Assembly: GCF_900128485.1 (NCBI RefSeq)
Contig: NZ_LT635856.1
Span: 14,045 to 78,044 of the forward strand
Direction: 5' to 3'
Source: Duodenibacillus massiliensis
GTDB lineage: Bacteria > Pseudomonadota > Gammaproteobacteria > Burkholderiales > Burkholderiaceae_F
DNA: 64,000 bases
Below the pieces are notes generated by a model. The model was not told where the DNA came from. It did no database searches and saw nothing but the letters and a program-made list of their open reading frames with translations. The position numbers were made by a program, and so were the translations under genes. Of this stretch, positions 21,785-64,000 are shown in pieces; within the stretch, counting starts at the first letter, position 1; each line of letters begins with the position of its first letter.

Positions 21785-21808
21785 ATTGCTCCCAATATTG
21801 CTCCCAAT
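21785..21808. repeat. Tandem 12-base repeats, candidate integrase arm sites
   Basis: ATTGCTCCCAAT occurs twice without spacing. The core TGCTCCCAAT recurs at 62922 and inverted (TTGGGAGCAT) at 62976, just upstream of the element C integrase. Short repeats on both sides of an attachment core are typical arm-type sites of tyrosine integrases. Confidence 0.6.
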
Positions 21809-21858
21809 AGAGACGGGATACGCAAATAACATCAATAAATATTAAGGAGTTCGGATCT

Positions 21859-21867
21859 AACTGGGCC
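21859..21867. other. Candidate attachment core, left end of phage B
   Basis: AACTGGGCC here and at 62750 are direct repeats flanking phage B. The bases before it (GTTCGGATCT) look like a tRNA T-loop, and at the right end AACTGGGCC is followed by TACCA. Joining left flank and right copy gives a sequence like the last 24 bases of a tRNA. The core is short, so the assignment is tentative. Confidence 0.45.
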
Positions 21868-21910
21868 AAAAACCCGCATGAATAAAGGCGTGTATGGCGG
21901 CTCCAAAAAT

Positions 21911-21932
21911 CTTCCCTAGTTTTTTCCCTAGT
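21911..21932. repeat. CTTCCCTAGT repeat pair, candidate phage B integrase arm sites
   Basis: CTTCCCTAGT followed after two T by TTCCCTAGT. The same 22-base block with one mismatch lies at 62573-62594 beside the phage B integrase, and an inverted relative at 62635-62652. They lie inside the AACTGGGCC repeats, as arm sites should. The rest of 21809-22030 contains no gene. Confidence 0.55.
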
Positions 21933-21994
21933 CATGCAGAAAAAGCGTAAACTCCTCACTAGATGTCCTGAGCGCCAAGAGCGCCTGAGACACG

Positions 21995-22026
21995 GAACCC
22001 CGAGCGCCGCAAGGTACCCGGGGTTC
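21995..22026. terminator. Hairpin at the end of the phage B late operon
   Basis: GAACCCCG (21995) pairs with CGGGGTTC (22019) around a 16-base GC-rich loop, four bases beyond the last phage B late gene. There is no T-run on the minus-strand side, so termination strength is doubtful; T-rich sequence follows on the plus strand. Confidence 0.45.
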
Positions 22027-22030
22027 AATT

Positions 22031-24568
22031 TTATCTCTCCGGCTGATCCGCCATACGAGGAGCACGCGTCGGCATGAGACTGTCAAGCGGCAACCAGTAG
22101 TCCTGTCCAGTCCCACGGCGCAGCTTCTTTTCCATCCGCGACAGGTATCCCGGCGACATCCACTCATTGAACTCGTTCATAAAGGCGCGGTCAATCGCCG
22201 TTGACGTGTACCACATATTGAGGAACGGAAGGTGCGAGCGGATTGAACGCACAGTTTTCGCACCAGGTTTTGTGTCCTTGTCGTAGATAGGTGCACGAGC
22301 CCAAGCAAACGCCGCGTCCGAAGCCTCAATCACCGAACCAAGCTGAGGACCAAGAATGTTAGCCGCGCCAGACATTGCACCGTAACGAGAATCATCTGAG
22401 AGTCCGTTCACAATCCAGTCCCCAAGGAAACCTAAGCCGCCACCCTTTGTCAGCGCAGCCGCCCAGAATTTTCCGGAGGTAACATCTTCTGCATCCTTAC
22501 CATTAAGCAAGTCTTGAATCTGAAGGGACAATGCCCCCATGACCGTCGTCGATACTACCATCGCCGCCAGGTACCCAAGTTGATCCACTCGGCCGCCGTG
22601 GTGATTTAAGAACTGCGCCCGCCGCCAGTGCTTTTCCATCATTGCCAAAGGAAACGACTTGAAGAGCATCGCAGCACGCCACAACTCGCCCGACATTGTT
22701 CCTCGCTTATTACCGCGACTTGCTTCCGTCCGAGTGATCAAGTCAGGACCGAGGGAAGCCATTTCTCCTTCATTGAGGATAAAGCCGATGACCTTACTCG
22801 CAAGAGATTCAGCGTTCTCGTCAACGATCATCCTCTTCGGATCCGAAGAAATTTCCTTCAGCCGCTTATACGACAGGAACTTCACGCCCTTGAATTCTTC
22901 TGTCCCGGCCTCCTGCATCAGCCGCCATTCGGCCTCTCCAATACCGCCGTCCTGAAGTCGCGCCCGATCATAATCATCCAACGCCGACCAATCTTTCTCA
23001 ATGAATTTACCGAGAGACGCCAGCATATTGAGGTTGAACGCTCGGCGCACCGCATCAGTCCACGCCGTCAGGAAAGAAGCCCTCATTGAGGCATTCGCCA
23101 GTTTGGCCGTCCACCCTTGTCCCAGATTGTCGCTACCCCACCGAATGAAGTCGGATGAGATACTGTCAGCAATGAGGCCGCAACGATTCGCATAGTCTTT
23201 CCAGTCGGAGCCGTAGGCCGAGAAGAGGAGCCGCATTCCTTGTCCAAAATCCAAGCGACTGAAGCCGGTAGCCACAAAGTACGTCGCAATATCTGAGAAG
23301 GACGAAATAAACGCTTTTCCCAATTTGCCGGCAACTTCGAGATTTCGCCATCCGGACAGAAACCGCACCGCAGGTTCGGAGTTGACGGCCATCGCGCTTG
23401 CCTCACCGGAAAGCACGCGCCACATTTCATCCAACGTAACACGCGTCAGACCGTGGTGATCTGAATATTTCGTAAGGAGTTCCCAACTGCTTTTCTCACG
23501 CCGGGCGTCCAAAGCCTGAGCGTCGGCAATTTCTTTAAGGAATTTGAACGTCGTCTCCGCTTGCGGCCCGAATCCCTCCATCATCGCTATGTCGTGACTC
23601 ATCTTGGAAACATGCCCGATAAGCGTACTCGTCAAACTGCCCTGACCGTACTTCGCCTCGTACTGCAGATACGAATCCGCATCCTTGAAATGCAACTCTC
23701 GGTGCGGATATTTTTTGTAGCCTACCAGGCTAGGCTCTACCGGAGTTTCCAAGGCATCCCACAAATTGTCTGCGTTATGTCCGGAAGTCACAATGTCTTC
23801 CCATGCCTCACCAAGGAAGTCCCGCAACTGACTGTCGGTCATCCGCTGACCGTTGTCCTGCTTATAGCGGGTTCTGTCCATAAGCGGGAACACCTCATCA
23901 ATCCAAGCATTCTTCCCGCCGCCTTTTTTATTTCGGACTTTTGCCCAATCGTGCGACTGCGGAATATAGCCATAGTCAATAAGACCAATCCTTGCACCTG
24001 CATGTAAGGCACGGCCCCGCATATCCTTCGCCGTCTTTGCCCATGCCTCAGCCGCGGCCTTCGCACGGGCGTTCTTTGTGTCTTCACCATAGACCTCATG
24101 TGCGAAATCGTGAGCATCTTCGGCGTTTTCCATAAAACCAAGCCATTTCGGGCGAATGCCGTTAAGCGTATCGAGCATCGAAGTCAGGTACTCGTTTTGA
24201 ATGCCTTTTGCAGCGCGTTCAACACCGAGCATCAGTTTTGCGACGCCCGCGTGAGCGTGAATGTCCTCTTCCCGCGCAAGGCGATCCAATTCTCTCAGCG
24301 AGCGGTTTTGTGCGAGAACCTGCTTATAACGCGCAGCCTTCTTTTGCCGAGCCTGCTCCTGTAAATCCTTCGCCAGCTCACCACCGGCGGCCTGAATGCG
24401 TTCCGCCTGAGTCATTGAGCCCCAGCGTTCCCGAAAATCTTTGCGTTTGGAAAGCGTGTTCATTTTGGACTCGAAGGCCGCGATAATCTGTTCGCCTTCT
24501 TCGTCGCTGATTGTGCCTTCTTTGCGACCGAGCGTCTGCCCGATCAAGTCCTTACATTCTTGTTTCAT
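22031..24568 (-). CDS. Large internal virion protein
   Basis: 845 residues from ATG 24568, which overlaps the upstream stop (ATGA). The N-terminal 150 residues are helical and charged, the middle has aromatic-rich segments (DYGYIPQSHDWAKV, then WSALDDYDRARL), and the C-terminal third contains hydrophobic helices (AAMVVSTTVMGALSL). It is the last of three very long late proteins downstream of the lysis cassette, matching podovirus internal core or ejection proteins that enter the cell with the DNA. No enzymatic motif is seen. Role inferred from position and size. Confidence 0.7.
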   Translation of the reverse strand: MKQECKDLIGQTLGRKEGTISDEEGEQIIAAFESKMNTLSKRKDFRERWGSMTQAERIQAAGGELAKDLQEQARQKKAARYKQVLAQNRSLRELDRLAREEDIHAHAGVAKLMLGVERAAKGIQNEYLTSMLDTLNGIRPKWLGFMENAEDAHDFAHEVYGEDTKNARAKAAAEAWAKTAKDMRGRALHAGARIGLIDYGYIPQSHDWAKVRNKKGGGKNAWIDEVFPLMDRTRYKQDNGQRMTDSQLRDFLGEAWEDIVTSGHNADNLWDALETPVEPSLVGYKKYPHRELHFKDADSYLQYEAKYGQGSLTSTLIGHVSKMSHDIAMMEGFGPQAETTFKFLKEIADAQALDARREKSSWELLTKYSDHHGLTRVTLDEMWRVLSGEASAMAVNSEPAVRFLSGWRNLEVAGKLGKAFISSFSDIATYFVATGFSRLDFGQGMRLLFSAYGSDWKDYANRCGLIADSISSDFIRWGSDNLGQGWTAKLANASMRASFLTAWTDAVRRAFNLNMLASLGKFIEKDWSALDDYDRARLQDGGIGEAEWRLMQEAGTEEFKGVKFLSYKRLKEISSDPKRMIVDENAESLASKVIGFILNEGEMASLGPDLITRTEASRGNKRGTMSGELWRAAMLFKSFPLAMMEKHWRRAQFLNHHGGRVDQLGYLAAMVVSTTVMGALSLQIQDLLNGKDAEDVTSGKFWAAALTKGGGLGFLGDWIVNGLSDDSRYGAMSGAANILGPQLGSVIEASDAAFAWARAPIYDKDTKPGAKTVRSIRSHLPFLNMWYTSTAIDRAFMNEFNEWMSPGYLSRMEKKLRRGTGQDYWLPLDSLMPTRAPRMADQPER

Positions 24569-27500
24569 GCCGGAATCCCGTTGTTTCTGATGATGCACAT
24601 TGCGGCCGTTGCCAATCCAGCCATATCCGTATCCGCCTGCTTATCAATCGAGGCTTCATCCGCCAAAATCTCCGCAGCCGTCTTTTGGTGTTCAATGCCA
24701 TTTTCATCCTTGAATTTATAGATAAAATCAGGATTAAGCGCAGCCAAATCCTCAACCTGCACACGTTCGGAATTTTCTTCGGATAGTCCTTCGAGTTCGT
24801 GAGCCTGATGCGCTTCAAGTTCAGACACTGCTTTCGCCTCAGCGTCCAATCCTGCGTCCGGCGGAATATCGGGCGGAGGTTCTGACGCAACTCCGGCATC
24901 TTCGGCCACAGTCTCTACGACCGACTTCACCACGTTTTCGGCCGGCTTTTCTGCCTGCTGCATCGCTTGCAGGGTATTGCGCATCGCCGCCACATCCACT
25001 GCCGGCAAAGCCTCACGGAATCCTTCAGTAGCCCCTTTCTCGCGCATCGCTGCATTGCCTTCGTCAATCAAGCGATTTTGCGTATCACGGAAGATACCCA
25101 TAACATCGGCAAGGTCTGTCGAGACGTTTTCTGCCTCACCAAACAAACCGCCCTGGGGGCCGTTGCCGGACGACTTCAGTCGGTTTTCCACCGCAGCCGC
25201 GAAAGGTTCAAGCACCCGAGCAATGGCCGCAGCCGAGTTCTGATTCTCGGCAATGAAGCCTAAAAGTTGCTGCACCGCCGGGTTATCGCCGAACACGTCA
25301 CCCTGACCGACAATGCTTTCAAGCGGCGTCCCTTCGATCTTCGCGTTACGGATGCGGTTCACCACGTCCACCAAAATCGGGCCCAGGTCAACCGAGCCGT
25401 TCGAGGCTTCTCGGATGTTGATAACGTGAGGCGCGAAAGCCGCCATCGCGTTCAAAATGCGCTTGATACCCTGCTTATCGGTATCGTCCGCCACCAGGGC
25501 CGTCAACGTCCGGTCTCGATATGCTTCATAGAAGACAGCCGCACGGAGTCGATTCGTCGCGGTCTCTGTCGGCCGCCCGTCTGCCGTAAGGAGCTTCCCG
25601 AGAGAATTCGGTTCACCAATGTCAATCGTGAACAGCCGCACCGTCTCCGGAGTCGGCGCACCATCCTCATCGAACTGATACTTCCAAACATTGTTACGGA
25701 TCCGCGGCGAATCCTGCACCGCCGTTTCGAGAGCCGACTTTTCCAAGACGTTCGAAGAATTCGAGCGCTCGACAAATCCCGTCGTCACAGCTTCCGGCGG
25801 CATGATGCGCACCAGTACTGGGCGCTGCATCCCTGCCACCACTTCCGGATTGATCCCCACGGAATGCGCATCGGCCATCAAGTCCTGTCGATATTGCTCA
25901 GCCGTTCCACGGTTATAGGCTTCAGAGAGCCCCGCCATGCGCCCGTTACCAGCTATCGCGTGCATCCGGGAAGGATCAGTTCCGTATCCCTGAACAGGCG
26001 TCCCGTCGAAGTTATTGGAGCGGAGCACCGAATCCGCCTCAACCACGGCGTAGGTCATCGGGATTTTGTGGCTGCCGTCGGCCACGGTTTCCGTGTTTCC
26101 GAGATACCGAGAATCAGGCAACGACCCAAAGGACACAATCGGAGCACCGGAGTCCGTCGTGCGGGAGACGGAAAGTCGCGTGTAGTCCGGAGCCGTGGCA
26201 ATGGCGTTCATCTGTCCGACAGACACTGCGCCCGTACGGTCACGGTTCTGAAGCACTACTATCGTCCCAGCGTCCCCCATCTGGAAGGACTTCGCGAAAG
26301 CATTCTGTGCCTGACGAACCGTTGCATCGTTCACCGGGACGTTCTTCATCGTCTGAGAAACATCCACCCGTTCGCCGGAGTTCATCGCCTGAGCCGCCTG
26401 CTGCTGAGCGCGAATCCCCGCCATGAAGTGGTCAGGAGCCGAACCATTCTGCAGGGGAGCCGTAACCTTTTGATTATTCGTACGCTGAGCTTGAATGACA
26501 CGAGCCGCCGTCACTTGCTTGGAATTCGACCGGAAGGACGCCATTTTGTTTTCTGCGTCGTACATTCGATCAAGCACCCGACGGACTTCCTGAGAAAGTT
26601 CCGGAAGTTCTTCGCCGAACTGCGCCTTGTAGCGTTCGCCGATTTCCTTCTTGGCCGCATCGTCGCCGGAACCTTCGCCCACGAGGTCACGGTACATATC
26701 CATTAGCCACCGGGCAAAGTTGCGGAACATCCCTTTCAGATACACTGCCGGCACCTCACCTTCAGCGAGATAGCGTTCCGTCCAAGCCGCGTACTGCTCC
26801 TGCAGCTTGACTTTCTTCTCGAAAGGCAGGGCGTTGTATTCCTCAACGGACTTGAGACCGAATGCCTTCATCAAGGCGTCAATGTCGGCCCGCGCTTCCG
26901 GGGAAAGGTTTTTGTCGGCCGCGTGCGCAAAGAGATTCGTCAGGTACCAGTGCGAGTGTTCGTGCGAGAACGTGGAAAGATTCGCATTCGGCGTGAGTTT
27001 GATAGTGTTCGTCTGCGGGTTGAAGGAACCGCGGATTTCGCCGATGATCTGATTGAACTCCATATCGAACGCAGGGTCTGCCGGGTTACGCCAATAGCCG
27101 CCATCTTCGGCATAAGCCCACTCGTTCGGCTCATCCACGAAGAAACGAGAACGCTTATCCTCATCCTTCACCCAGGATTCTTTGCCGTCCGCACCTGTTT
27201 CCTTTTTGTAAACAACATCCCCATCGCGCTTGACACCCGTCAACATATCGCGTACAGTGATTTCATCCTCGGTATAACGCGATGCAATAGGATCATTTGG
27301 GGATGAATCGTCGGAGCGCAAAACCTCTGAAGGGCTTCCCCCCGCCGAAGCATCGCCGCCGCGGACAGAGGGCTCAACAATCGGTTGAGCCTTTTCTGTT
27401 TCTATCCCGGTAATTTGATAAGCCGCCAGTCGATCTTTGCTTCCTTTCCCGCCGTCCGAAATCCGATCTTTTACAGTGATTTTGACAAGAAACTCTTTTC

Positions 27501-29388
27501 CGTCGACAACCACCGGAGAGTAGAACCGGTGCATTCCGCGCAGGGTTTTGTCCGCGGATTTAACCCCCTGAGACGCTTTTATGTCTCGGTAACTTTCCGC
27601 AGGGAAAGCGTGCTTCACCACTTCAGGGAGATTTTTCAAAACTACTGCGTTAGCCGCCCGGCTTTCGGTACCGCGCTTTAAACGGGAAATACCGTGAACG
27701 ATCTCATCAGAATCATCGGCGCCAATAGTGAAACGCCACCCGGTAACTTCATTATCCAACGGAACTGCGTTATCACCGCGATACGGCTTGATAAGTTGAG
27801 CCAGCCCCTTGTTATCCGGAACCGCAGAACCGTCGCTCTCTATGCGCGTTACCCTTACCCTGTAATCTGGGTTCTTCGCTGCACGATCTCCGTATTGCCA
27901 GTTCTGCCCCTGGGTCACCGGCATACTGAAGGCTTCCTTCGGTACCTCCGCAGACTTCCCGTCCTCCGACCATACGATCTTTGCCGAGAAGTCCCGCACC
28001 TTGTCCGGCTCAATCCCCAAACGCTTCGCGAGCGCCACGACGGCCAGGGAGTTAATCGCCGCCTGCGTCCCGGCTTGCTCGAAGTTGAACTGACTCTGTC
28101 CTTTGTTGAAAAGAGCCGTCCGCTGATCCTCGTAGACAAGACGGGCCGCATCCTGATACTTCTGCGTTCGAATCTGTTCAGGACTGCGCCAAAACGCCCC
28201 GCCGAAGGCCGCACCCATAACCGCGCTTACCGCCAAGTCCACGCCGTTCAAGTCGTACTGCTGAGCCAGTTGGTTGTAATCCTGATGTTCGAGGATGAAT
28301 TTGATACCCTCGACTTCGGCCACATTCGTCCCGGCATTCGCCGCAGCGCCGTACGCCATGGACATACCGCGACTCGCACCGAGAACCGCCGGAAGCCGCA
28401 TACCTATTGCGTTCATCCCGAACGACACCAGGCCGGCATTGATAGCCGTGTCGCGGTCTACGCCCTCATCCATCAGGCGATTCGTCTCATCGATGCCCAC
28501 GTCAGCGCCGAAAGCCAGTGCGCCGCCGGCGACGCCGCCCGCCAAACCGTAACCAATTGCCTTCGGAAGCGTCTTGAAAAGCCCGTAGACAATCTGAGAA
28601 GCCGTACCCATCGTTTCGGGATCGACCTCAAAGTGAACCTTGTTGTAATCGCGAATATCCCGGGCGGCCTGATCCATGACCGCCTTTTGCCCCTCCCACC
28701 AGGCGCGGGTTTCGTCCCTGCCCATACGGGAGAGAACATCGGCCCCGGTGTTCTTAAAAGCCGTGATAGCGGAGCTCGCCGTCTGTAGCACCGCAGCGGG
28801 AATGCCCTTCCACGTATCGCCAAGCCCTGAGAAGACGCCGAGAGGCATATTGACGCCCGGAAGCGGACGTTCCTCAAACACCTTGTCCTTCAGATCGAGC
28901 ATGACGCCGGGCTCATTGCGCAGGAAGTAACGGCGCAGTCGATCTGCCTCAACCGACGACAGTTTCCGCCCCGGGGTGTAAACGTCCGTCCCTTCAGCAT
29001 TCCGAGACCATACACCCCCCGCCACACCGTCCTGACCGCTGTAAATCGACTGATCCGAGAAAGTCGGATGATTCGGCTTTTTGTATTTATCGCCCAAGTG
29101 ACCGCGCTCATCCTCAGACATCGTGCCGGACTGCAGCTCTCTCCAGGCACCGCGCAAGTCGTAGTCGTAAACGTCCTTTTCGCGGTGATTCTCTGTCGCC
29201 CATGCCTGATATTTTTCTTCCTCATCAGGCGACAAAACGGTATTGAACTTATCCGAATAATCCTCCGAGAACGCATCACGAGGGCCAACGGCATCCGTGC
29301 CCCAGCGGTTGATTCTCGCCTGCCGCATCTGCTCTTCGCTCATCTGCGGTTGCTGAGAGGCCGGGGTATAGATTTCAGAAAACAGCAT
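24565..29388 (-). CDS. Polyvalent virion protein with zincin-like and ParB-like domains
   Basis: 1607 residues. Near residue 806 the motif TFSHEHSHWYLTNL has the HExxH zinc-peptidase pattern. Around 600-660, DKTLRGMHRFYSPVVVDGKE with FLVKITVKD resembles a polyvalent-protein-associated domain. Around 1100-1240, MTYAVVEADSVLRSNNFDG, MHAIAGNGRMAGLSEAYNR and VLVRIMPPE match the DdrB-like ParB-superfamily domain. Residues 250-400 have membrane-like Ala/Gly helices. Such multi-domain proteins are packaged and injected to act early against host defences or chromosome functions. The gene lies between internal virion genes, fitting delivery with the DNA. Exact activities are unproven. Confidence 0.75.
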   Translation of the reverse strand: MLFSEIYTPASQQPQMSEEQMRQARINRWGTDAVGPRDAFSEDYSDKFNTVLSPDEEEKYQAWATENHREKDVYDYDLRGAWRELQSGTMSEDERGHLGDKYKKPNHPTFSDQSIYSGQDGVAGGVWSRNAEGTDVYTPGRKLSSVEADRLRRYFLRNEPGVMLDLKDKVFEERPLPGVNMPLGVFSGLGDTWKGIPAAVLQTASSAITAFKNTGADVLSRMGRDETRAWWEGQKAVMDQAARDIRDYNKVHFEVDPETMGTASQIVYGLFKTLPKAIGYGLAGGVAGGALAFGADVGIDETNRLMDEGVDRDTAINAGLVSFGMNAIGMRLPAVLGASRGMSMAYGAAANAGTNVAEVEGIKFILEHQDYNQLAQQYDLNGVDLAVSAVMGAAFGGAFWRSPEQIRTQKYQDAARLVYEDQRTALFNKGQSQFNFEQAGTQAAINSLAVVALAKRLGIEPDKVRDFSAKIVWSEDGKSAEVPKEAFSMPVTQGQNWQYGDRAAKNPDYRVRVTRIESDGSAVPDNKGLAQLIKPYRGDNAVPLDNEVTGWRFTIGADDSDEIVHGISRLKRGTESRAANAVVLKNLPEVVKHAFPAESYRDIKASQGVKSADKTLRGMHRFYSPVVVDGKEFLVKITVKDRISDGGKGSKDRLAAYQITGIETEKAQPIVEPSVRGGDASAGGSPSEVLRSDDSSPNDPIASRYTEDEITVRDMLTGVKRDGDVVYKKETGADGKESWVKDEDKRSRFFVDEPNEWAYAEDGGYWRNPADPAFDMEFNQIIGEIRGSFNPQTNTIKLTPNANLSTFSHEHSHWYLTNLFAHAADKNLSPEARADIDALMKAFGLKSVEEYNALPFEKKVKLQEQYAAWTERYLAEGEVPAVYLKGMFRNFARWLMDMYRDLVGEGSGDDAAKKEIGERYKAQFGEELPELSQEVRRVLDRMYDAENKMASFRSNSKQVTAARVIQAQRTNNQKVTAPLQNGSAPDHFMAGIRAQQQAAQAMNSGERVDVSQTMKNVPVNDATVRQAQNAFAKSFQMGDAGTIVVLQNRDRTGAVSVGQMNAIATAPDYTRLSVSRTTDSGAPIVSFGSLPDSRYLGNTETVADGSHKIPMTYAVVEADSVLRSNNFDGTPVQGYGTDPSRMHAIAGNGRMAGLSEAYNRGTAEQYRQDLMADAHSVGINPEVVAGMQRPVLVRIMPPEAVTTGFVERSNSSNVLEKSALETAVQDSPRIRNNVWKYQFDEDGAPTPETVRLFTIDIGEPNSLGKLLTADGRPTETATNRLRAAVFYEAYRDRTLTALVADDTDKQGIKRILNAMAAFAPHVINIREASNGSVDLGPILVDVVNRIRNAKIEGTPLESIVGQGDVFGDNPAVQQLLGFIAENQNSAAAIARVLEPFAAAVENRLKSSGNGPQGGLFGEAENVSTDLADVMGIFRDTQNRLIDEGNAAMREKGATEGFREALPAVDVAAMRNTLQAMQQAEKPAENVVKSVVETVAEDAGVASEPPPDIPPDAGLDAEAKAVSELEAHQAHELEGLSEENSERVQVEDLAALNPDFIYKFKDENGIEHQKTAAEILADEASIDKQADTDMAGLATAAMCIIRNNGIPA

Positions 29389-29390
29389 TG

Positions 29391-55302: not shown

Positions 55303-55542
55303 ATGATTGATCTCAGCAAACACAACGAAGATTTGATCCGAGACGCCAACACCTGGAAGCCGCTCAACGTCTACCCGCTTGAGCGCGTGATGGTGTTCGA
55401 GAGCGGCAGCCAAAGCTACTTCGTCTACACCGAGCTGCATACCGTTTCAGTGAGCGACGCAAGCCGCAGAGAAGTATCGAACTCCTACGCCTTAACAGAA
55501 GACGAGTTCTCCCGCCTGATGGGCGAACTCAACCTCGACTAG
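55303..55542 (+). CDS. Hypothetical early protein, 79 residues
   Basis: ATG 55303 with GGAG nine bases upstream; an in-frame start at 55252 would lie in the duplicated repeat. Soluble, alpha/beta (ERVMVFESGSQSYFVYTELH), acidic end. Not recognised. Confidence 0.55.
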   Translation: MIDLSKHNEDLIRDANTWKPLNVYPLERVMVFESGSQSYFVYTELHTVSVSDASRREVSNSYALTEDEFSRLMGELNLD

Positions 55543-55550
55543 GAGGCTAC

Positions 55551-55706
55551 ATGAACGAAGACGACAAGGACCTCGACGCCGAAGAGCTCGAGGACGAAGA
55601 AGAGGAAGAAGAGCCGGAAGAGGACGATGGCGACGATGGCTTTGAAGATGACGGCTGGATCAATGCCGGCGACTTCTACCACTGGGACCCGTTTAAAGGA
55701 CAGTAG
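55551..55706 (+). CDS. Extremely acidic 51-residue protein, possible DNA mimic
   Basis: ATG 55551 with AGGAGG upstream, TAG at 55704. 26 of 51 residues are Asp or Glu, only three Lys and no Arg, and an aromatic C-terminus follows (FYHWDPFKG). The composition recalls DNA-mimic inhibitors of restriction or nucleases, here directly upstream of the phage's own exonuclease gene. It could equally be a regulator of that exonuclease. Function unproven. Confidence 0.55.
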   Translation: MNEDDKDLDAEELEDEEEEEEPEEDDGDDGFEDDGWINAGDFYHWDPFKGQ

Positions 55707-55709
55707 AAA

Positions 55710-56624
55710 ATGACAGCAGTACAGATCTCTCACGAACAATGGCTCAAAGCCCGACAGACCGGAATCGGCGGTAGCGATGTCGCCCCGATTCTTGGTATTT
55801 CCAAATGGACAACGCCGCTGGACGTATACAACGAGAAGGTAGCCGACACCCCAACGGAAAAAGACAGCGATTCCATGGAATGGGGGCGCCGCCTGGAACC
55901 GGTTATCCGCCAGGCTTACGCGGATAAGACGGGACGCGTCGTGGCCGTGCCGGAAAAACAGTTCCGCAGCGACGCTCATCCCTTCATGATTGCCAATGTA
56001 GACGGTGTTTGCGAAGACCGTCTGTTGGAAATCAAGACCGCACGAACCGGCGCAGACTGGGGAGAAGAAGGCACGAACGAAATCCCAGACTATTACCTGA
56101 CGCAGGTCATGCACTACATGATCGTCACAGGATACCGGCTTTGCGACGTGGCAGTGCTCATCGGCGCTTCCGACTTTCGCATTTACACAGTCGAGTACGA
56201 CGACGAACTTGCTCAGATGTTGATCGAAGCCGAAGCAAAGTTCTGGAAGATGGTCGAGAACCGGACGCCCCCGGCTCCTCGTTCGCTTGCAGAAACGAAG
56301 GCCGCCTTCCCCTCCTCCGTTCCTTCGAGCATTGAGGCCGACAACAAGATAGCCGAGACCATGACCGAACTCGCCAAGGTACGAAACGAAATCAAACAGC
56401 TGAAGGACACGGACGACAAATTGACTGCTGTCGTTCAGGCCTTCATGGGCGAAAGCGAAAAGCTGACTTTCGGAGGCTCAACCCTTGCCACCTGGAAAAG
56501 CAGCAAACCAGTAGCCCGACTTGATTCGGCTGCGCTCAAAAAAGCCATGCCGGACATCTACGACCAATACACGAAACAAAGCGCGCCGACCCGCCGCTTC
56601 ATCGTAAAAATTACTGAGGAGTAA
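55710..56624 (+). CDS. YqaJ-type (lambda exonuclease-like) recombinase nuclease
   Basis: 304 residues. EQWLKARQTGIGGSDVAPIL and GISKWTTPLDVYNEK, EWGRRLEPVIRQAYAD, the catalytic DGVCEDRLLEIKTA (E-x-K) and YYLTQVMHYMIVTGY are standard YqaJ motifs. The enzyme resects 5' strands for annealing with the partner encoded next. A C-terminal helical extension (ETMTELAKVRNEIKQLKDTD) is present. Confidence 0.93.
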   Translation: MTAVQISHEQWLKARQTGIGGSDVAPILGISKWTTPLDVYNEKVADTPTEKDSDSMEWGRRLEPVIRQAYADKTGRVVAVPEKQFRSDAHPFMIANVDGVCEDRLLEIKTARTGADWGEEGTNEIPDYYLTQVMHYMIVTGYRLCDVAVLIGASDFRIYTVEYDDELAQMLIEAEAKFWKMVENRTPPAPRSLAETKAAFPSSVPSSIEADNKIAETMTELAKVRNEIKQLKDTDDKLTAVVQAFMGESEKLTFGGSTLATWKSSKPVARLDSAALKKAMPDIYDQYTKQSAPTRRFIVKITEE

Positions 56625-56630
56625 ATCATC

Positions 56631-57608
56631 ATGGCAACAGAAATCACCGTAAACCCCTTCGCCACCCCCGCCCCTGTCGCCAGCCGCGGATCCGCCCCGG
56701 CTACAGCAGCCGTTGAAAGTTCTCGCGCCGTGGCTGAAGTGCAGGCCGCTTTGGCTATCGCCCGCATGAATCCGCGAGATCAACGCGCCGCGATGGACCG
56801 AATCTTGAACGCCTGCACGCGGCAAACACTCGCTCAGGCCGCCGTTTATTCCTACGCTCGTGGAGGAAGCGAAGTTACAGGTCCGTCGATTCGCCTCGCC
56901 GAAGCCGTCGCACAGCAGTGGGGCAATATGCAGTTTGGCATTCGTGAACTTTCAAACGCCGGGGGAAAGTCTGAAGTTCAGGCTTTCGCCTGGGACGTAG
57001 AAACAAACACCCGCCGCGAAGTGACGTTCTCTGTTCCTCACATTCGTCACACGAAGAGAGGCTCCTACAAGCTCGAAGACCCGCGCGACATCTATGAGCT
57101 TATTGCCAATCAGGGTAGCCGCCGCCTTCGCGCCTGCATTTTGGCCGTGATCCCCGGGGACGTGATTGAGGCGGCTGTGTCGCAGTGCCAGATAACGCTT
57201 CGCGCCAACGTAGACGTAACGCCGGAAGGCATCAAGAAACTCATTGATGCTTTCTCTCAGTTCGGCGTCACCAAAGCGCAGATCGAGAAGTTCTGCCAGT
57301 GCCACGTAGAAGCCATCCGACCGGCTCAAATCGTACGGCTTCGAACGATCTACACCAGCTTGAAGGACGGCATGGCCGAGCCTGCGGACTTCTTCGAACC
57401 GGAGTCCGCCCCTGCCGCTCCTGCCATTGAAAAGCCCGCCGAGAAACAGACGCTGAAAGAAAGACTCAAGGCGCAGAAAGTTGCTGAAACGACGGAGATT
57501 GCCGACGCTGATACGCCGGATGCCGGAGCGGAACCCGCACCGACGGCCGCGCCCAAAGAACCGCTCCCGGATCTCAATCCGAACGAGCCGGAAGTTCGGG
57601 AACCGTGA
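56631..57608 (+). CDS. Putative single-strand annealing/recombination protein
   Basis: 325 residues, six bases after the exonuclease stop. AEAVAQQWGNMQFGIRELSN, DVETNTRREVTFSVPHIRHT, YELIANQGSRRLRACILAVI and VIEAAVSQCQITL are the conserved core of a phage family regularly paired with YqaJ nucleases. I infer a RecT/Rad52-like annealing role from pairing and size. The C-terminal 80 residues are Pro/Ala/Glu-rich and probably disordered. Confidence 0.7.
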   Translation: MATEITVNPFATPAPVASRGSAPATAAVESSRAVAEVQAALAIARMNPRDQRAAMDRILNACTRQTLAQAAVYSYARGGSEVTGPSIRLAEAVAQQWGNMQFGIRELSNAGGKSEVQAFAWDVETNTRREVTFSVPHIRHTKRGSYKLEDPRDIYELIANQGSRRLRACILAVIPGDVIEAAVSQCQITLRANVDVTPEGIKKLIDAFSQFGVTKAQIEKFCQCHVEAIRPAQIVRLRTIYTSLKDGMAEPADFFEPESAPAAPAIEKPAEKQTLKERLKAQKVAETTEIADADTPDAGAEPAPTAAPKEPLPDLNPNEPEVREP

Positions 57609-57664
57609 AAGATCACCCGTAACACACAACTTTCACTTAGGAAGCACAAACAGGAGTCCAAAAA

Positions 57665-57778
57665 ATGACCTTTGACGATAAGGCCCTGGCAGCCGGATCG
57701 GTGATCGCCGCGGTGTTCATTTTTCTTTGGCTTTGGCTCAGTCCGGGCGTTTTTCTGGGCTGGTTGATCTGGGGGTAA
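57665..57778 (+). CDS. 37-residue membrane microprotein ending in FLGWLIWG
   Basis: ATG 57665, TAA 57776. Short acidic start (MTFDDKALAAG), one membrane segment rich in Trp, and the C-terminus PGVFLGWLIWG. Phage A's 20195-20311 product ends PGLFLGWLIWG. Conservation in two unrelated phages argues for function at the membrane. Confidence 0.6.
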   Translation: MTFDDKALAAGSVIAAVFIFLWLWLSPGVFLGWLIWG

Positions 57779-57781
57779 GAG

Positions 57782-58051
57782 ATGGAAGCACAGGATTTAA
57801 AACGCCGCGTCCGGGAGCTGTATGAGCAGGTCTCCTTCAGCCAGGAGGAGACACGACGGCTTCAGATGATCGAGGACGCGATCACAAAGGGAGCAATCGA
57901 GAAGGCGTGCGTGCTCTCGATGATCCTCGCGACAAGCACGCACAAAAAGGCAAACGCCGCGGCCCGGCTGCGGGATACGCTGAGGAGAGCGAAAGATGGC
58001 CAAAAACAGCAAACCGCGCAAGAAGTATCGGCCGAAGCCCGTGAGGTTTAA
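57782..58051 (+). CDS. Hypothetical early protein, 89 residues
   Basis: ATG 57782, three bases after the previous stop. Helical and charged throughout (LKRRVRELYEQVSFSQEETR, KKANAAARLRDTLRRAKDGQ). Overlaps the next gene by 56 bases. Not recognised. Confidence 0.55.
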   Translation: MEAQDLKRRVRELYEQVSFSQEETRRLQMIEDAITKGAIEKACVLSMILATSTHKKANAAARLRDTLRRAKDGQKQQTAQEVSAEAREV

Positions 58052-58553
58052 CTGTTGGGAACGCTCAGACATCGAGCACCTGCAGGCCGTGTTTCAGGAA
58101 TTTGAGCTTATCACTGAGTTCAAATTCCCGACCGGCGAAGCGAACATGGACGACATGTGCTGTGTCCGGGACGTGCTCAATCTCTGCACCCTCGGGATGG
58201 TGACACGGGACTGGCTAGATCGGGACGAGGTCAAGGACTGCACACCGATCGTCAACGCGGCCGGAGACGCGATCAAACGATGCGCCGACCGCGCCTGCGA
58301 CCGCAATCCGGACGCCCCGCGGTTTGTGTTCGCCGGAGACGAACTCAAGGCAGTCCGGGCAGGAGTCGCGATTGCCGGCCCCTTCATTCGGGACAGTCTG
58401 GACGAATCACCAACCCGCCTCATCCTGGAGTTCTACGCGATGCGGCATCTGACAAGGGGAAAGGACGGGCGATACGCCTACACGGACGAACAACTGAAAA
58501 GAGCAATTGAACAAGAGAACGACAACATTGACTGGAGCCACCGCCATGGATAA
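57996..58553 (+). CDS. Hypothetical early protein, 185 residues
   Basis: GGAG upstream of ATG 57996. Basic start (KNSKPRKKYRPKPVRFNCWE) followed by helices with several Cys (DDMCCVRDVLNLCTL, CADRACDRNPD) and an acidic C-terminus. Resembles small phage proteins with a conserved hydrophobic-Cys helix, but no function is known to me. Confidence 0.6.
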   Translation: MAKNSKPRKKYRPKPVRFNCWERSDIEHLQAVFQEFELITEFKFPTGEANMDDMCCVRDVLNLCTLGMVTRDWLDRDEVKDCTPIVNAAGDAIKRCADRACDRNPDAPRFVFAGDELKAVRAGVAIAGPFIRDSLDESPTRLILEFYAMRHLTRGKDGRYAYTDEQLKRAIEQENDNIDWSHRHG

Positions 58554-58707
58554 CACAACACTTCTGATGGACCAGCGGCCGCAGCCGCCTTCAATGGCCA
58601 GTTCGACGATGAGTTCAGCTACGGCCGCGTGCGTTGAAGCCCTCGTTGGCGGTGTAGTGATGGAGCTTTTCGGCGGGGTGCCGCCGTGTGGATTGTTGGA
58701 GGAGTGA
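58546..58707 (+). CDS. Possible 53-residue protein
   Basis: ATG 58546 overlaps the previous stop by eight bases; GGAG lies about ten bases upstream. Ser/Met/Pro-rich first half and a hydrophobic second half (VEALVGGVVMELFGGVPPCG). Weakly supported by spacing only; could be spurious. Confidence 0.35.
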   Translation: MDNTTLLMDQRPQPPSMASSTMSSATAACVEALVGGVVMELFGGVPPCGLLEE

Positions 58708-58709
58708 AG

Positions 58710-58922
58710 ATGCAGACCAAGTTGCTGACTATTAAGGAAGTCGCCAAGCGGCTCAATAAGTCTGTGAGCACGATCCGCAGTTGGATTCGCGGTTACTACG
58801 ACAACGGCGACGGCCCGCGCCTGCGGGGGCGCGAATTTATTAAGCCGATCCGAGTCGGCGGCACCCTGCAATTTAAAGAATCCGAGCTCGAACGCTGGAT
58901 TGCCGAAGGAGCTCAACGTTGA
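58710..58922 (+). CDS. Excisionase/MerR-like DNA-binding protein
   Basis: 70 residues from ATG 58710 (GGAGGAG upstream). LLTIKEVAKRLNKSVSTIRS, WIRGYY, then FIKPIRVGGTLQFKESELER is the HTH-17/excisionase winged helix. Probably directs excision with the integrase at 61298. Confidence 0.78.
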   Translation: MQTKLLTIKEVAKRLNKSVSTIRSWIRGYYDNGDGPRLRGREFIKPIRVGGTLQFKESELERWIAEGAQR

Positions 58923-59002
58923 CAAACGCACAAGAATCCGCGCATAATGCCCGTGCCTCGTCTACCAAGAGGCACCGGATTGGCGCCCGGAAAGCGAAAG
59001 GT

Positions 59003-59140
59003 GTACAGCCGCCTTACTTCCGTATGAGCGGATTTTTTGTGCATAGCAGTCTCCCTTTACGGGCGGACTGTATGGGGCATGCTTGCATGCGCCGGTACCC
59101 TTTTGCACCGGTACGCCAACCCGTACAGTCTGCCCACCAC
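59003..59140 (+). ncRNA. C4 antisense-like RNA upstream of the Rha regulator
   Basis: The gene-free interval 58923-59188 contains a hairpin CCGC/GCGG followed by ATTTTTTG (59009-59038). A second large structure follows: GGGCGGACTGTATGG (59061) pairs with CCGTACAGTCTGCCC (59121), enclosing GCATGC-TT-GCATGC and CCGGT/ACCGG hairpins. This sequence and architecture resemble the phage P1/P7 C4 antisense RNA, which blocks translation of the downstream icd-ant genes. CTCCCTTT (59051) is roughly complementary to the AAAGGAGG ribosome site at 59175. Rfam match not checked. Confidence 0.55.
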
Positions 59141-59188
59141 GATTGGCGTCGTGAGGGCAGTTCTCAAACTGCAAAAGGAGGACACGCT

Positions 59189-59464
59189 ATGCAAGCGTTC
59201 CAAGGTGCTGCTCAAACGCAGCCGTCAACATTCAATCTCCCGTTCGCCATCACGGCGCTCATCAAACACCAGCTGACCTCCGGCGAAGCCAAGGACTACG
59301 CGATTATGTCGTGTTCCGAAGCCAAGAACATCCTCATCGCCGTAGCCGATTCGGCCGAAAGCGATAGCCAGATGCTTTCCACCGCAGGGCTTCTCAGCGT
59401 CATCAAATCCGCCGCTTCCATTTTGGAATGCGCAGAACTCCTCGTTAATGAGACGGAGAAATGA
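59189..59464 (+). CDS. Small protein in the icd position upstream of the antirepressor-like gene
   Basis: 91 residues from ATG 59189, AAAGGAGG eight bases upstream; the frame is open further left but that is the C4-like RNA. FNLPFAITALIKHQLTSGEA, KNILIAVADSAESDSQMLS: helical. Its stop overlaps the start of the Rha gene (ATGA), so translation of the two is likely coupled, as for icd and ant of P1. Confidence 0.6.
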   Translation: MQAFQGAAQTQPSTFNLPFAITALIKHQLTSGEAKDYAIMSCSEAKNILIAVADSAESDSQMLSTAGLLSVIKSAASILECAELLVNETEK

Positions 59465-60018
59465 AAATGACTCATACCGCTATCGTTACCCCGCCCGTCG
59501 TCCAAGATCATGACGGGCGTCCCATGACCACGAGCTTCCAGGTTGCGAAGTACTTCAACAAACGTCACGACCACGTCCTCCGTGACATCGACAACCTGAT
59601 TAAAAAGCGCCCCGATTTAGGTGTGTCCAATTTTGGGGAGTCTTTTGAAAACAAGGCTTTAGGTACTGTTCAGAACCACAAGGTTCGTTTTTATTACATG
59701 GATCAAAAAGGCTTTACTCTGCTCTCCATGGGCTTTACGGGCGACAGGGCTCTCGGCTTCAAAATCGCTTATATCGACCAATTCGAGGCTATGGCGAAAG
59801 CTATTGCCAACGCAAAGACGAACTACCTGCAAGACTACATCAACAAGCTGACGATGCTGGAGAACAAGAGAGAACGCTCGTCCGTTGCTGGGCAAGCCTT
59901 ACATGAGTGGAAGACCGAAAAAGGACAACTGGAACTCGAAGTGAAGGAAGCGGAAAAGAAGGTGCAGCCGGAACTGCCGCTGCAGATCAGCGTTTCCATC
60001 GAAAATAAGGAGAAGTAA
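59461..60018 (+). CDS. Rha-family phage regulatory protein / antirepressor candidate
   Basis: 185 residues. MTTSFQVAKYFNKRHDHVLR, DIDNLIKKRPDLG, YYMDQKGFTLLSMGFTGDRA and FKIAYIDQFEAMAKAIANAK are the Rha domain. A coiled C-terminal part follows. Rha proteins interfere with lysogenic regulation, and related KilA/Ant proteins relieve repression. With the non-cleavable CI and the C4-like RNA, a role in induction is plausible. ATG 59467 is an alternative start with better ribosome-site spacing. Confidence 0.85.
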   Translation: MKMTHTAIVTPPVVQDHDGRPMTTSFQVAKYFNKRHDHVLRDIDNLIKKRPDLGVSNFGESFENKALGTVQNHKVRFYYMDQKGFTLLSMGFTGDRALGFKIAYIDQFEAMAKAIANAKTNYLQDYINKLTMLENKRERSSVAGQALHEWKTEKGQLELEVKEAEKKVQPELPLQISVSIENKEK

Positions 60019-60019
60019 A

Positions 60020-60253
60020 ATGAAACAGATCGACCTCACCCCTATCTATAAGGCCGCCGCGAAGGTTATGGCAGAAAACGGTATCGAAGAAATCCGCCTC
60101 CGCCTTTTGAAGGATGATGACGGCCCGTCAGCCATCGACTTCGAGATCAACGGCGCGGGCTATATGTCCAACTTCGAGGAATATATCCCCACCATCAAGG
60201 CCGTTGAGTCCGACATGATGAAGTTGGTCATCAGCCGCCCTGACAACGCGTAA
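60020..60253 (+). CDS. Hypothetical early protein, 77 residues
   Basis: ATG 60020 one base after the Rha stop, with AGGAG upstream. MKQIDLTPIYKAAAKVMAEN then EEIRLRLLKDDDGPSAIDFE: compact alpha/beta. Last gene of the operon, followed by a terminator. Function unknown. Confidence 0.6.
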   Translation: MKQIDLTPIYKAAAKVMAENGIEEIRLRLLKDDDGPSAIDFEINGAGYMSNFEEYIPTIKAVESDMMKLVISRPDNA

Positions 60254-60279
60254 CCATCTTCGCGGCGTCACGAAAATGG

Positions 60280-60317
60280 TCCCCGCCAACCGAAGGCTGA
60301 CGGGGATTGTTTTTATA
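60280..60317 (+). terminator. Terminator of the phage B early operon
   Basis: TCCCCG (60280) pairs with CGGGGA (60301), with an inner GCC/GGC extension, followed by TTG and five T. It faces the convergent accessory genes. Confidence 0.75.
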
Positions 60318-60810
60318 TAAAATCAGTCATTTCATTGATTATATTATCATGCGTATCAGGAATTAAACTAACCAATTCGCCAGTTATCGAATCTACGATA
60401 TTGGTCGGAACATTTCTTTTCTTGGACACATATATATAAACAACACCGAGAAAGGCCTTAAATTTAAGAGTTTCCGCCAAAGACAATCGCATCAATCCTT
60501 GATTATCCAATAATATTTGTTTGAGTGCAAAAAGGAATAGAATTTGAGCCGCACCGGCAGTCCCATATTTCCTAGAAAAAATCACCATCCGCACCCTAAT
60601 ATCTCTATTTGTATATAGCGACCCCGTAGCTAATTTAGCTACATCATTCGCAATCTTAGCCGCTTCCTGATTAACACCAACAACGCTGACTATCCTTTCC
60701 ACTTCTTTATTGATAGAAACCTGACGCGTAGCATTGTTGAAACAGAAGAGCGCGACGGCCAAAACAATGCCACCAATGACGATCCCGATAATCAGTCCTG
60801 AGCTCATCAT
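60313..60810 (-). CDS. Membrane-anchored accessory protein
   Basis: 165 residues from ATG 60810 (GGAG upstream, overlapping the previous stop). Residues 3-24 (SSGLIIGIVIGGIVLAVALF) are a membrane anchor; the rest is a helical cytoplasmic or periplasmic domain (LATGSLYTNRDIRVRMVIFS, FLFALKQILLDNQGL). AT-rich codons unlike the phage genes around it. Paired with the secreted protein upstream and placed beside the integrase, a typical lysogenic-conversion site. Not recognised. Confidence 0.65.
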   Translation of the reverse strand: MMSSGLIIGIVIGGIVLAVALFCFNNATRQVSINKEVERIVSVVGVNQEAAKIANDVAKLATGSLYTNRDIRVRMVIFSRKYGTAGAAQILFLFALKQILLDNQGLMRLSLAETLKFKAFLGVVYIYVSKKRNVPTNIVDSITGELVSLIPDTHDNIINEMTDFI

Positions 60811-61301
60811 TTTGCACTCCCTCGTTTGACAGCATTCATCACCGTGCAAAGCAATTGAAGCTCGCTTTCAATTACGGATTGAGGCATAGGATAAAGCCAC
60901 TCATTTTGGGAAAATTGCTCTGTCACATCGCCCTCTGCAAAATAATCACTAAAGCCGATATTGTTTAGCTTTTTTATTCTCCACCCTTTGCAATCAATTT
61001 CATTTAAACTTGCTAATGATTTTGTTTGCGGTTGCCCTTTTACACTCGCGCCTTTTGCGTAGCTAATAATCGACCAGATTTTATTTTCATCATGAACGGG
61101 GCCGACAAAAAGAAAAGCGTTTAAATTTTTCAAAAACGTACCGGGGCAAATTTCACCACGCATCTCCTTTTCAACTAACGAAGAACCTTTTTTCGGAACG
61201 GTCATTTTGAACCCGCCGACGACAATTTCTTCCGCCGAAAAAGAAGGCACAGACATAGCAATACAAGCCACTCCCGCCAAACAGGCAATAACCCTTTTCA
61301 T
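60807..61301 (-). CDS. Secreted accessory protein
   Basis: 164 residues. MKRVIACLAGVACIAMSVPS, then FSA before AEEIVV, is a Sec signal peptide with likely cleavage after Ala23. The mature domain has three Cys and is beta-rich (FLFVGPVHDENKIWSIISYA), with no known motif. AT-rich. Overlaps the integrase stop and its membrane partner by four bases each, so all three can share a transcript and be expressed in the lysogen. Confidence 0.65.
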   Translation of the reverse strand: MKRVIACLAGVACIAMSVPSFSAEEIVVGGFKMTVPKKGSSLVEKEMRGEICPGTFLKNLNAFLFVGPVHDENKIWSIISYAKGASVKGQPQTKSLASLNEIDCKGWRIKKLNNIGFSDYFAEGDVTEQFSQNEWLYPMPQSVIESELQLLCTVMNAVKRGSAK

Positions 61302-62545
61302 TTGTCCACCTTGCTAAAACAAAAATCCGCCCACGCGGTCATCAATTCACGCCGGCGCAGGAATAACGTCTGCCGCTCATACGCACCGTTGTAGCCGTCG
61401 TTCAGTTTGTGGTGCAGACAAAGATGCGCCACCCGCACGTCAAACCGCTTATCGTTTCCCAAACTGTCGTCCTGACTCCAGGTCATAAACGTGGCCCGAG
61501 CGATTCCGTGCTGAGTCGGACGTACCGTCTTCCCGCGCTTCAGAGTCTCGGCCTTGTCCGTCCAATCGCCAGGCGTCAATTTGACAAGCCGCCCGAGCAT
61601 CGTATCCGTCATCACGTTACCGTAACGATTCGGGAAGATCAGCCCTTCATGCGGTCGATCAATGCTTTTCAGAAACTCAATCACCTTCGGGGCCAGCGGC
61701 ACAATCAATGCGCCGTTGCTGGAGACCTTCAGTTGTTCGGGCGGGACTGTCCAAATCTTCTCTTCCCAGTCTATCTGATCCCAACGGGCTTCCCGCGCCG
61801 TCTGCGAACGCGTCGCCGTCAGAATGGAAAACTCAAAGCACTGTCGGCTACTGATCTGCTTTTCGGCCATAGAGGCAGCGAAGAAGTCCGGCAACTCGCT
61901 TACCGCCAACGCCCCGCGGTTTTGTTTGACGTGTCGATTGTTCGGCAAAAGAAACTGCAACGCCCCATGACGATCCGCCGGATTGTCCCTGTCGGTGTAG
62001 CCCTTCGCCTTCGCCCAGTCGAAGACCTTTTTGGCGAAACCGAGGCACCTATCCACAATGTCCGGTTTATCCCAAATAGCCGCCGCAATCTCGGCCACGT
62101 CCGCAGGCTTGATCTCGTCAATAAGCTTGTCACCGATTCTCGGCCACACGTGACAACGCATCCGGCTTTCGAAAACACGATGAGACTTTGAAAGCTCCTC
62201 CCAGTTGCCTACGTCGATATTCCACTGCATGTACTCGTCGCAGACTTTTCGGAAAGTTTTCTTTGCCACGGACACGGGCTTTTTCTTTTTCGAGGCTTCG
62301 ATCTCTTTCACAAAATCTTCAGCACCAAGTCCCATCAGCCGGGCAGTCATAGCCCGCGCATTCGCCAAAGCGATACTTGCAGCACTGCCCAGACCTACGT
62401 CATACCTCTTGCCATTTACCTGACGACGCAGCACCCAAGCCCGTGAGCCACCTTTAATCACGAGGTACAAACCTTTGGTCAACTCGTCCCGATATACGCC
62501 GTCGCCAAGATTTCCCAAGGTTCTTTGTGAGAGTTTGGCTTTCAT
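61298..62545 (-). CDS. P4-type tyrosine integrase of phage B
   Basis: 415 residues. N-terminal DUF4102-like domain (YRDELTKGLYLVIKGGSRAW, KRYDVGLGSAASIALANARA), central SAM-like domain and catalytic core: Arg246 (TATRSQTAREARW), His346/Arg350 (HGIARATFMTW), His378-379 (LCLHHKLN) and Tyr389 (NGAYERQ). It integrates and excises phage DNA at a tRNA-end-type site. The start faces the right attachment region, the usual P4-type orientation. Confidence 0.94.
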   Translation of the reverse strand: MKAKLSQRTLGNLGDGVYRDELTKGLYLVIKGGSRAWVLRRQVNGKRYDVGLGSAASIALANARAMTARLMGLGAEDFVKEIEASKKKKPVSVAKKTFRKVCDEYMQWNIDVGNWEELSKSHRVFESRMRCHVWPRIGDKLIDEIKPADVAEIAAAIWDKPDIVDRCLGFAKKVFDWAKAKGYTDRDNPADRHGALQFLLPNNRHVKQNRGALAVSELPDFFAASMAEKQISSRQCFEFSILTATRSQTAREARWDQIDWEEKIWTVPPEQLKVSSNGALIVPLAPKVIEFLKSIDRPHEGLIFPNRYGNVMTDTMLGRLVKLTPGDWTDKAETLKRGKTVRPTQHGIARATFMTWSQDDSLGNDKRFDVRVAHLCLHHKLNDGYNGAYERQTLFLRRRELMTAWADFCFSKVDK

Positions 62546-62572
62546 AAAAACTCCTCAACCAGGGAAGATTCT

Positions 62573-62652
62573 CTTCCCTAGTTTCTTCCCTAGTTGAGGT
62601 TAACACAAATTGATAAAGGCGAACACTTGTGAATAGGGAAGAACTAGGGAAG
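62573..62652. repeat. CTTCCCTAGT repeats upstream of the phage B integrase
   Basis: CTTCCCTAGTTT-CTTCCCTAGT at 62573 and an inverted AGGGAAGAACTAGGGAAG at 62635. The first copy matches the block at 21911 with one mismatch in 22. Probably arm-type binding sites and autoregulatory sites of the phage B integrase. Confidence 0.6.
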
Positions 62653-62665
62653 CAAGGATGCTTCA

Positions 62666-62750
62666 AGTCCCGTCATCACTAACGAAAAACCCCTGAAGCC
62701 AACGGCGACAGGGGTTCACGCGAAAAGCGAAAAAGCACTGGTTGGTAGGA
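62666..62750. other. Gene-free stretch with tRNA-end-like and hairpin sequences
   Basis: TTCAAGTCCCGTCATCAC (about 62662) looks like a T-loop and acceptor strand without a tRNA body. AACCCCTG and CAGGGGTT (about 62688 and 62709) form a hairpin with a T-run on the minus strand. No gene is seen from 62546 to 63010 apart from the repeats listed separately. Confidence 0.35.
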
Positions 62751-62763
62751 ACTGGGCCTACCA
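62750..62763 (+). other. tRNA 3'-end-like attachment core, right end of phage B / left end of element C
   Basis: AACTGGGCCTACCA has the form of an acceptor strand ending in CCA. Its first nine bases repeat at 21859. No tRNA body lies upstream here. An element with an integrase reading away from such a core (63011) is the standard P4-type layout. Confidence 0.5.
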
Positions 62764-62921
62764 TAATTCGAATTTCAGATATTCTCAGATAATCTCCCTC
62801 AGTCTCCATTGTTCACCTAATACGATGAATTTAAATGGAAACACTGCCTACCGTCAGTCTCTGTTGTTCTCTGTCGTTCTATATCAAACTCCCTCCAGCT
62901 CGCGAATGATTTCACCCAACT

Positions 62922-62985
62922 ATGCTCCCAATGGGTATGATTTCTTCGGAATTTTTCATTTTTTCTTCGGAACTTTTGGGAGCAT
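62922..62985. repeat. Arm-like repeats upstream of the element C integrase
   Basis: ATGCTCCCAAT at 62922 and inverted TTGGGAGCAT at 62976 match the tandem repeats at 21785. Between them TTTCTTCGGAA occurs twice (62941, 62962). They lie just upstream of the integrase start and may be its arm sites or its promoter operators. Confidence 0.6.
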
Positions 62986-63010
62986 AGCCTCCAACCCGCA
63001 GGAGAGCGGC

Positions 63011-64000
63011 ATGAGAGTAGCTGAACGCCTCACAGCGATACGACTGAAGACCCTTGAAAAGGACACTGCCTGCGGCGTTGTGCCGGGGCTTTACGTGACT
63101 GTCCGGAAGCTCGCCGACGGATCGTTTGCCAAGTATTTTGTTCTCAAAGATCGAAAACAAAAACGCTCCTACACCATCGGAAAATTTCCGGACATCTCAC
63201 TCTCAGAAGCATTCACCAAGGCAGCAGAATGGCGAGACCTCATCCTCAAGGGCGATGACCCTTCCAAACAACTCTTAGAGGCCTCCTCTCCCCAAAAACT
63301 GACGTATGAGAATCTCATGTTTCAATGGGTCGAATTCAACAATAAACGCGGCCGGTGGAAAGATGACAAGAAACCTCGACTCGGCGTGTGGCAAGGATAT
63401 TTCAGAAACCACATTCCAGACTCGCTGCGCCAGTGTCCGGCCGCTGAATTAACGCCCGAGATGTTTGCTGACGCGCTGGCGGAAAAATGGCGGACCATGA
63501 CCAACACCCCGGAAAAGATTCTTGCTGACACCAGGAATGCCATTGACTGGGCAATCCGACAAGAAATCATTCCGCCAATGATCAACCCGGCGCGCATTCA
63601 CGGCGGAAAACTTGGAGACCTACTGCCGTTGAACAGACCGGAAACCGGCCACGAACCGGCTCTCCCCGTCCAAAAGATGCCGGCATTCTTCAAAATGCTC
63701 ATGGAATACACCCTTTCGAGCCCTGCCGCCAGATGCTTGGCCTTTGCCATCCTGACGGCAGCCAGAAACTCTACCGCTCGAGAGGCCACTTGGAGTGAAA
63801 TCCAAAAGGACGATGACGGCAACTGGATCCACCTGATTCCGCGTTCACGCATGAAGGTCAAGGCCGAAGGCTTGCCGTTTGACCGAAAGACCCCTCTGAG
63901 TTCCGTTGCGGTCAGGCTGCTGGAAACCATGCCGAGAGTCAAATATGAAGGACAGGATTACCTCTTTCCCAGTATCTTTCATCGTAGCCTCAAGCCGATG
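63011..64000 (+). CDS. P4-type tyrosine integrase of element C (partial)
   Basis: ATG 63011 with AGGAGAG upstream; 330 residues are visible and the frame runs off the window. DUF4102-like N-terminus (GVVPGLYVTVRKLADGSFAK, RSYTIGKFPDISLSEAFTKA), central core-binding domain, and the catalytic Arg252 in LTAARNSTAREATW. The His-x-x-Arg and Tyr lie beyond the edge. Only distantly similar to the phage B integrase, so it serves a different element or phage A. Confidence 0.9.
   Translation, partial: MRVAERLTAIRLKTLEKDTACGVVPGLYVTVRKLADGSFAKYFVLKDRKQKRSYTIGKFPDISLSEAFTKAAEWRDLILKGDDPSKQLLEASSPQKLTYENLMFQWVEFNNKRGRWKDDKKPRLGVWQGYFRNHIPDSLRQCPAAELTPEMFADALAEKWRTMTNTPEKILADTRNAIDWAIRQEIIPPMINPARIHGGKLGDLLPLNRPETGHEPALPVQKMPAFFKMLMEYTLSSPAARCLAFAILTAARNSTAREATWSEIQKDDDGNWIHLIPRSRMKVKAEGLPFDRKTPLSSVAVRLLETMPRVKYEGQDYLFPSIFHRSLKPM

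Follow-up and report, generated by a model that had tools for sequence, protein, structure and literature searches.

Among the closest described counterparts of the locus analyzed here are the tandem prophages prophiT36-2a and prophiT36-2b of Mycobacterium abscessus, which are thought to have formed by crossover in the att site of a resident prophage (PMC9934374). In Escherichia coli, prophages are found integrated into other prophages, at sites that are probably chromosome-derived copies of attB carried within prophages (21 and 96 bases) (PMC8112680). Elements of the ICE and IME classes, which are conjugative or mobilizable, likewise accumulate in tandem at one gene (reviewed in PMC5704250), whereas the elements considered here are tailed phages.

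The window, a stretch of 64,000 nucleotides from the genome of Duodenibacillus massiliensis, contains a podovirus-like phage (B) lying between two elements that an earlier note on this DNA had named A and C, and that we treat below as parts of one kind of phage, AC. As in prophiT36-2a/b, different phages appear to be stacked at one attB by way of cores that are closely related, and a hybrid attR/attL junction lies between the phages. The M. abscessus case, however, consists of two prophages, whereas here one phage is apparently flanked by two copies of another; the phages and integrases differ from the present ones, and the present case is known from sequence (PMC9934374). In E. coli, as here, one prophage is lodged at an attachment sequence that another one carries, although in the present case that sequence is the att core of the resident phage itself (PMC8112680). 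Tandem and prophage-in-prophage integration are thus already known, and the new twist is probably that of a phage flanked by two copies of another.

Results

Attachment sites at the ends of phage B

The window contains no N and lies within a single N-free contig of 66.6 kb (C17:14045-80625), so both junctions of B are contiguous assembly and not scaffold joins. The earlier note had placed TGCTCCCAAT repeats outside B and CTTCCCTAGT repeats inside it, and this pattern is present (Table 1), although its coordinates were off by 1-8 bases for some copies. For TGCTCCCAAT, 0.14 exact matches would be expected, and three were reached in 0 of 100 shuffles; for CTTCCCTAGT, the expectation is 0.07, and four were reached in 0 of 100. 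The core AACTGGGCC has two exact copies in the window (21859 and 62750), and since such a pair arose by chance in 4 of 100 shuffles, it is unremarkable from its count alone. Position 62750 is identified as the edge of an element because another contig, C21, departs from the window sequence exactly at that base. Cores of tyrosine recombinases usually take the form of an inverted repeat around a seven-base spacer (compare the right junction core in Table 1).

When B (21868-62749) is taken out, the excisionase gene, the TGCTCCCAAT arms, the core, further arms, and the integrase gene become contiguous. Of the 24 bases in the rejoined core of AC, GTTCGGATCTAACTGGGCCTACCA, 21 are the same as at the 3' end of a tRNA-Met(CAT)-type gene of this strain; together, the rejoined sequence and this match bear out the earlier proposal that removal of B restores the gene and site order of an attP. 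B's own rejoined core agrees with the same tRNA end at only 14 of 24 bases. The conclusion that B occupies an attP-like junction, with the two ends of a tRNA-targeting tailed phage on either side and B precisely at their attachment core, is supported.

Table 1. Features of the window around phage B (coordinates in the window; strand as given)
Feature	Position	Strand	Remarks
Right part of AC (element A)	1..21867	.	PHROG and Pfam matches; gene order kept in the single prophage of G048
AlpA-like excisionase/regulator of AC, 71 aa	21500..21715	+	Pfam PF05930, E 1.2e-6; translation
Arm-type sites of AC integrase, TGCTCCCAAT, tandem, left side	21787..21808	+	Copies at 21787 and 21799
Left half of AC attP, GTTCGGATCT-AACTGGGCC	21849..21867	+	16/19 bases shared with the 3' region of the tRNA; the window's best match
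Left core copy, AACTGGGCC	21859..21867	+	Left end of B
Phage B, podovirus-like, about 40.9 kb	21868..62749	.	
Arm-type sites of B integrase, distal side	21911..21932	+	CTTCCCTAGT at 21911, near copy TTTCCCTAGT at 21923
B integrase, tyrosine recombinase, 415 aa	61298..62545	-	PF22022, PF13356, PF00589; PHROG 1
Arm-type sites of B integrase, CTTCCCTAGT, tandem	62573..62594	+	Exact copies at 62573 and 62585
Arm-type sites of B integrase, further pair	62634..62652	-	CTTCCCTAGT exact at 62643, near copy at 62634
Right junction core, GGTAGG-AACTGGG-CCTACC	62744..62762	.	Six-base inverted repeat, seven-base spacer
Right half of AC attP, AACTGGGCCTACCA	62750..62763	+	Equals the final 14 bases of the tRNA gene
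Arm-type site, TGCTCCCAAT, AC integrase side	62923..62932	+	
Arm-type site, TGCTCCCAA, AC side	62976..62984	-	Nine-base copy of TGCTCCCAAT
AC integrase (element C), tyrosine recombinase, first part	63011..64000	+	Gene runs on to C17:78386, past the window

The flanking phage and its relatives

The A side encodes a tail sheath, a major head protein/protease, a portal, a terminase, and a replication initiator on the minus strand, a CI-like repressor and a DUF2303 protein on the plus strand, and also a tape measure. In the genome of a family relative (G048), a single prophage at a tRNA-Pro gene has the order integrase, C-type genes, A-type genes; its integrase is 51% identical to that of C, a 14-base att repeat recurs 35.5 kb away, and similar arm repeats lie near both ends. 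The attP of that prophage is divided by its own integration at the tRNA, and the counterpart of AC there is one phage. Judged from this gene order, and from a further contig (C20) that carries genes of both types, A and C are two parts of one kind of myophage.

The integrases of AC and B both match PHROG 1, and both have PF13356 above the cut-off and PF00589 slightly below it. They are 28% identical to one another and their arm repeats differ, each phage having its own integrase and arm sites. Arms of the GCTCCCA type adjoin related integrases in two genomes (G041 and G080), and since other relatives have different arm motifs, arms of this type go with this type of integrase. Viral contigs were scanned for exact copies of the rejoined AC attP, of the half-site of B, and of the AC left half, but no relatives emerged, the matches being rejected as chance occurrences in unrelated contigs; the scans for the rejoined attP likewise revealed no AC-AC junction lacking B. 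Nor did integrase searches, which covered viral and genome contigs, add any relatives.

The tRNA target

The tRNA-Met(CAT)-type gene lies on the minus strand of C21. Its final bases are GAGTCCAACTGGGCCTACCA, and the sequence behind it is the one found after position 62750 of the window. The stretch shared with the window starts exactly at AACTGGGCC and runs into the AC integrase, whose sequence directly behind the tRNA gene is 99.6-99.8% identical to the window's. Because this sequence begins at AACTGGGCC, both the target and the edge of the flanking element are directly visible: a copy of AC is integrated at the 3' end of this tRNA gene, while relatives of AC are found at tRNA-Pro. Judging by its anticodon loop, we take it that the tRNA may be an isoleucine tRNA with a CAT anticodon. 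The core AACTGGGCC is common to both ends of B and to the tRNA edge of AC, and it is there that the prophages abut. An exact scan of genome contigs for the tRNA-AC junction gave no match. Four other copies of AACTGGGCC in the genome (on C6 and at C21:176815, C20:142152, and C20:163100) were inspected and set aside as ordinary coding sequence.

Phage B

The gene set of B includes a GP7-type capsid, a terminase, and an S24 repressor, and its head-tail adaptor is 45% identical to Bbp21 of Bordetella phage BPP-1. Kinship with BPP-1 was noted at window positions 39485-41152; among the B proteins scanned, there was no match to a reverse transcriptase of a BPP-1-type diversity-generating element. A further B gene (window positions 24565-29388) encodes a large polyvalent protein of 1607 aa with ddrB-ParB and LPD3 domains, which is possibly delivered with the DNA.

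Relatives of B sit at tRNA-Met and tRNA-Leu genes. The integrase of B is encoded at the end farther from the tRNA side, the reverse of the arrangement in these relatives, and a second tRNA for B, ending in GTTCCTACCA, was looked for in the genome but not found, the sole other copy of this sequence lying outside any tRNA. Because the integrase end is reversed and no tRNA with the other half-site turned up, B may occupy a secondary site. The same two observations, together with the poor agreement of its core with the tRNA, could also be read to mean that B habitually targets an AC-type attachment core, AC being its landing site and the two phages being able to be lost or moved together; we regard this as quite doubtful.

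Copies of AC in the assembly

More than one allele of AC is directly visible. The tRNA-linked integrase allele on C21 and the B-linked allele on C17 differ at a few positions, and C17:78662-80625 and C17:80627-82597 are two versions of one stretch, 97% identical, with the differences mostly within about 350 bases. C20 begins with a further copy of AC (C20:1-19934), most pieces of which are 98-100% identical and whose tail-fiber region is rearranged; over C20:1-566, identity is 100% to the B-linked contig and 99.5% to the other allele. There are at least two copies of AC, in two to three alleles. The tape-measure region occurs in at least three sequence versions (L004:9285-14043, L046:11708-18739), an indication that AC-type copies number more than two or that the population is mixed. 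The right half of AC occurs once in the assembly, and the AC tail region is pieced together from overlapping contigs with a single N at each join.

The AC copy on C20 stops inside the tail-tube gene (C20:19934; L046:19900-20000), where it adjoins host ABC-transporter genes; this break reflects either a deletion or a misassembly. On no contig of the assembly is the right end of a second AC copy joined to host DNA at the core, and in genomes of the same genus, host synteny around the tRNA gene is too rearranged for the right flank to be placed or for C21 and C20 to be confirmed as the two sides of one site.

Outside the window, at C17:82965-87173 (L005:12966-17174), lies a third tyrosine recombinase of 393 aa. 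Downstream of it, three perfect ATGTCCGGACAT palindromes and several CCGGACAT half-copies are found about 420-440 bases apart among alternative tail-fiber ends, and the breakpoints at which C20 and C17 are rearranged (at about C17:84224, 85539, 85966, and 86818) lie at these sites. The region is a predicted shufflon-like switch of tail fibers.

Discussion

The arrangement is best explained as a stack of prophages at a single tRNA gene, in which B has most likely become lodged in the att core of a second phage through successive integrations. Probably, the tRNA-Met(CAT)-type gene is followed by a first copy of AC (AC1), by B, by a near-identical but truncated second copy (AC2), and then by host DNA. 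Since the assembly is badly broken up in the AC regions, we infer the order across contigs, as we do the mechanism: host DNA on the tRNA side is visible on C21, and C20 would form the outer right side, so that the simplest chain would read C21 host, tRNA, AC1, B, truncated AC2, C20 host. The earlier note had left two options open, tandem prophages A and C meeting at an attP-type junction or a single phage whose att region hosts B. What favors the tandem over the single phage is that C21 carries a second integrase allele behind its tRNA gene, and that C20 opens with yet another AC copy.

Every integration in such a series would be an integrase-mediated crossover within the shared overlap AACTGGG, which would allow an incoming phage to cross over in the att site of a resident one. 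AC1 would have entered the tRNA gene; B would then have crossed over in the core at the right end of AC1, or in an AC1-AC2 junction; and AC2 would have come to lie on the far side of B. Excision of B would leave an attP-type junction of AC, and AC1 could still be excised by way of the attL on the tRNA side and the core on the excisionase side.

Other readings account for part of the evidence. It is unlikely, in our estimate, that B sits in the attP of an extrachromosomal or excised circle of AC while a separate, truncated AC prophage occupies the tRNA gene between C21 and C20. Such a circle would fit the lack of host flank on C17, both ends of which lie in AC genes, as well as the unlike integrase alleles linked to the tRNA and to B, and C21 and C20 could indeed be the two edges of one AC prophage. 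C17, however, holds two alleles of the same 2 kb, which is impossible in one circle, though misplaced scaffolding may explain it, and an unsystematic look for the replication or partition modules of a phage-plasmid revealed none. We consider it improbable that the strain is a double lysogen with the order tRNA, AC, B, host, in which the junction of an AC-B circle was assembled instead of the B-host junction. A double lysogen with a co-excised circle would yield all three junctions seen (tRNA-AC, AC-B, and B-AC), and the excision product of a whole tandem has been detected by PCR in M. abscessus cultures (PMC9934374); it would nevertheless leave unexplained why there are two or more AC alleles and why C20 begins with an AC copy, and no B-host junction was found among the four other genomic core copies inspected.

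Less probable still is an assembly chimera, in which the short shared core alone would have joined B to AC. The surroundings of AC are indeed fragmented in the assembly, but one N-free contig of 66.6 kb spans both junctions, a repeat of nine bases is not long enough to lead an assembler astray, and arms and core stand in the expected att order at both sides. Least probable of all is that A and C are unrelated phages abutting B by chance: the two sides differ in gene content, yet this is expected of opposite ends of one genome, and both the agreement of the rejoined attP with the tRNA and the occurrence of C-type and A-type genes together, contiguously in G048 and again on C20, speak against it.

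Read as a prophage stack, the locus is a clear and instructive case of a known route by which prophages accumulate. A very short core would let two tailed phages, unrelated to each other and with integrases that are only distant relatives, occupy a single tRNA locus together, and programs that call prophages would cut AC into two elements wherever another prophage occupies its junction. If it is true that B prefers the core of AC, B would be a phage that has another phage as its chromosomal niche.
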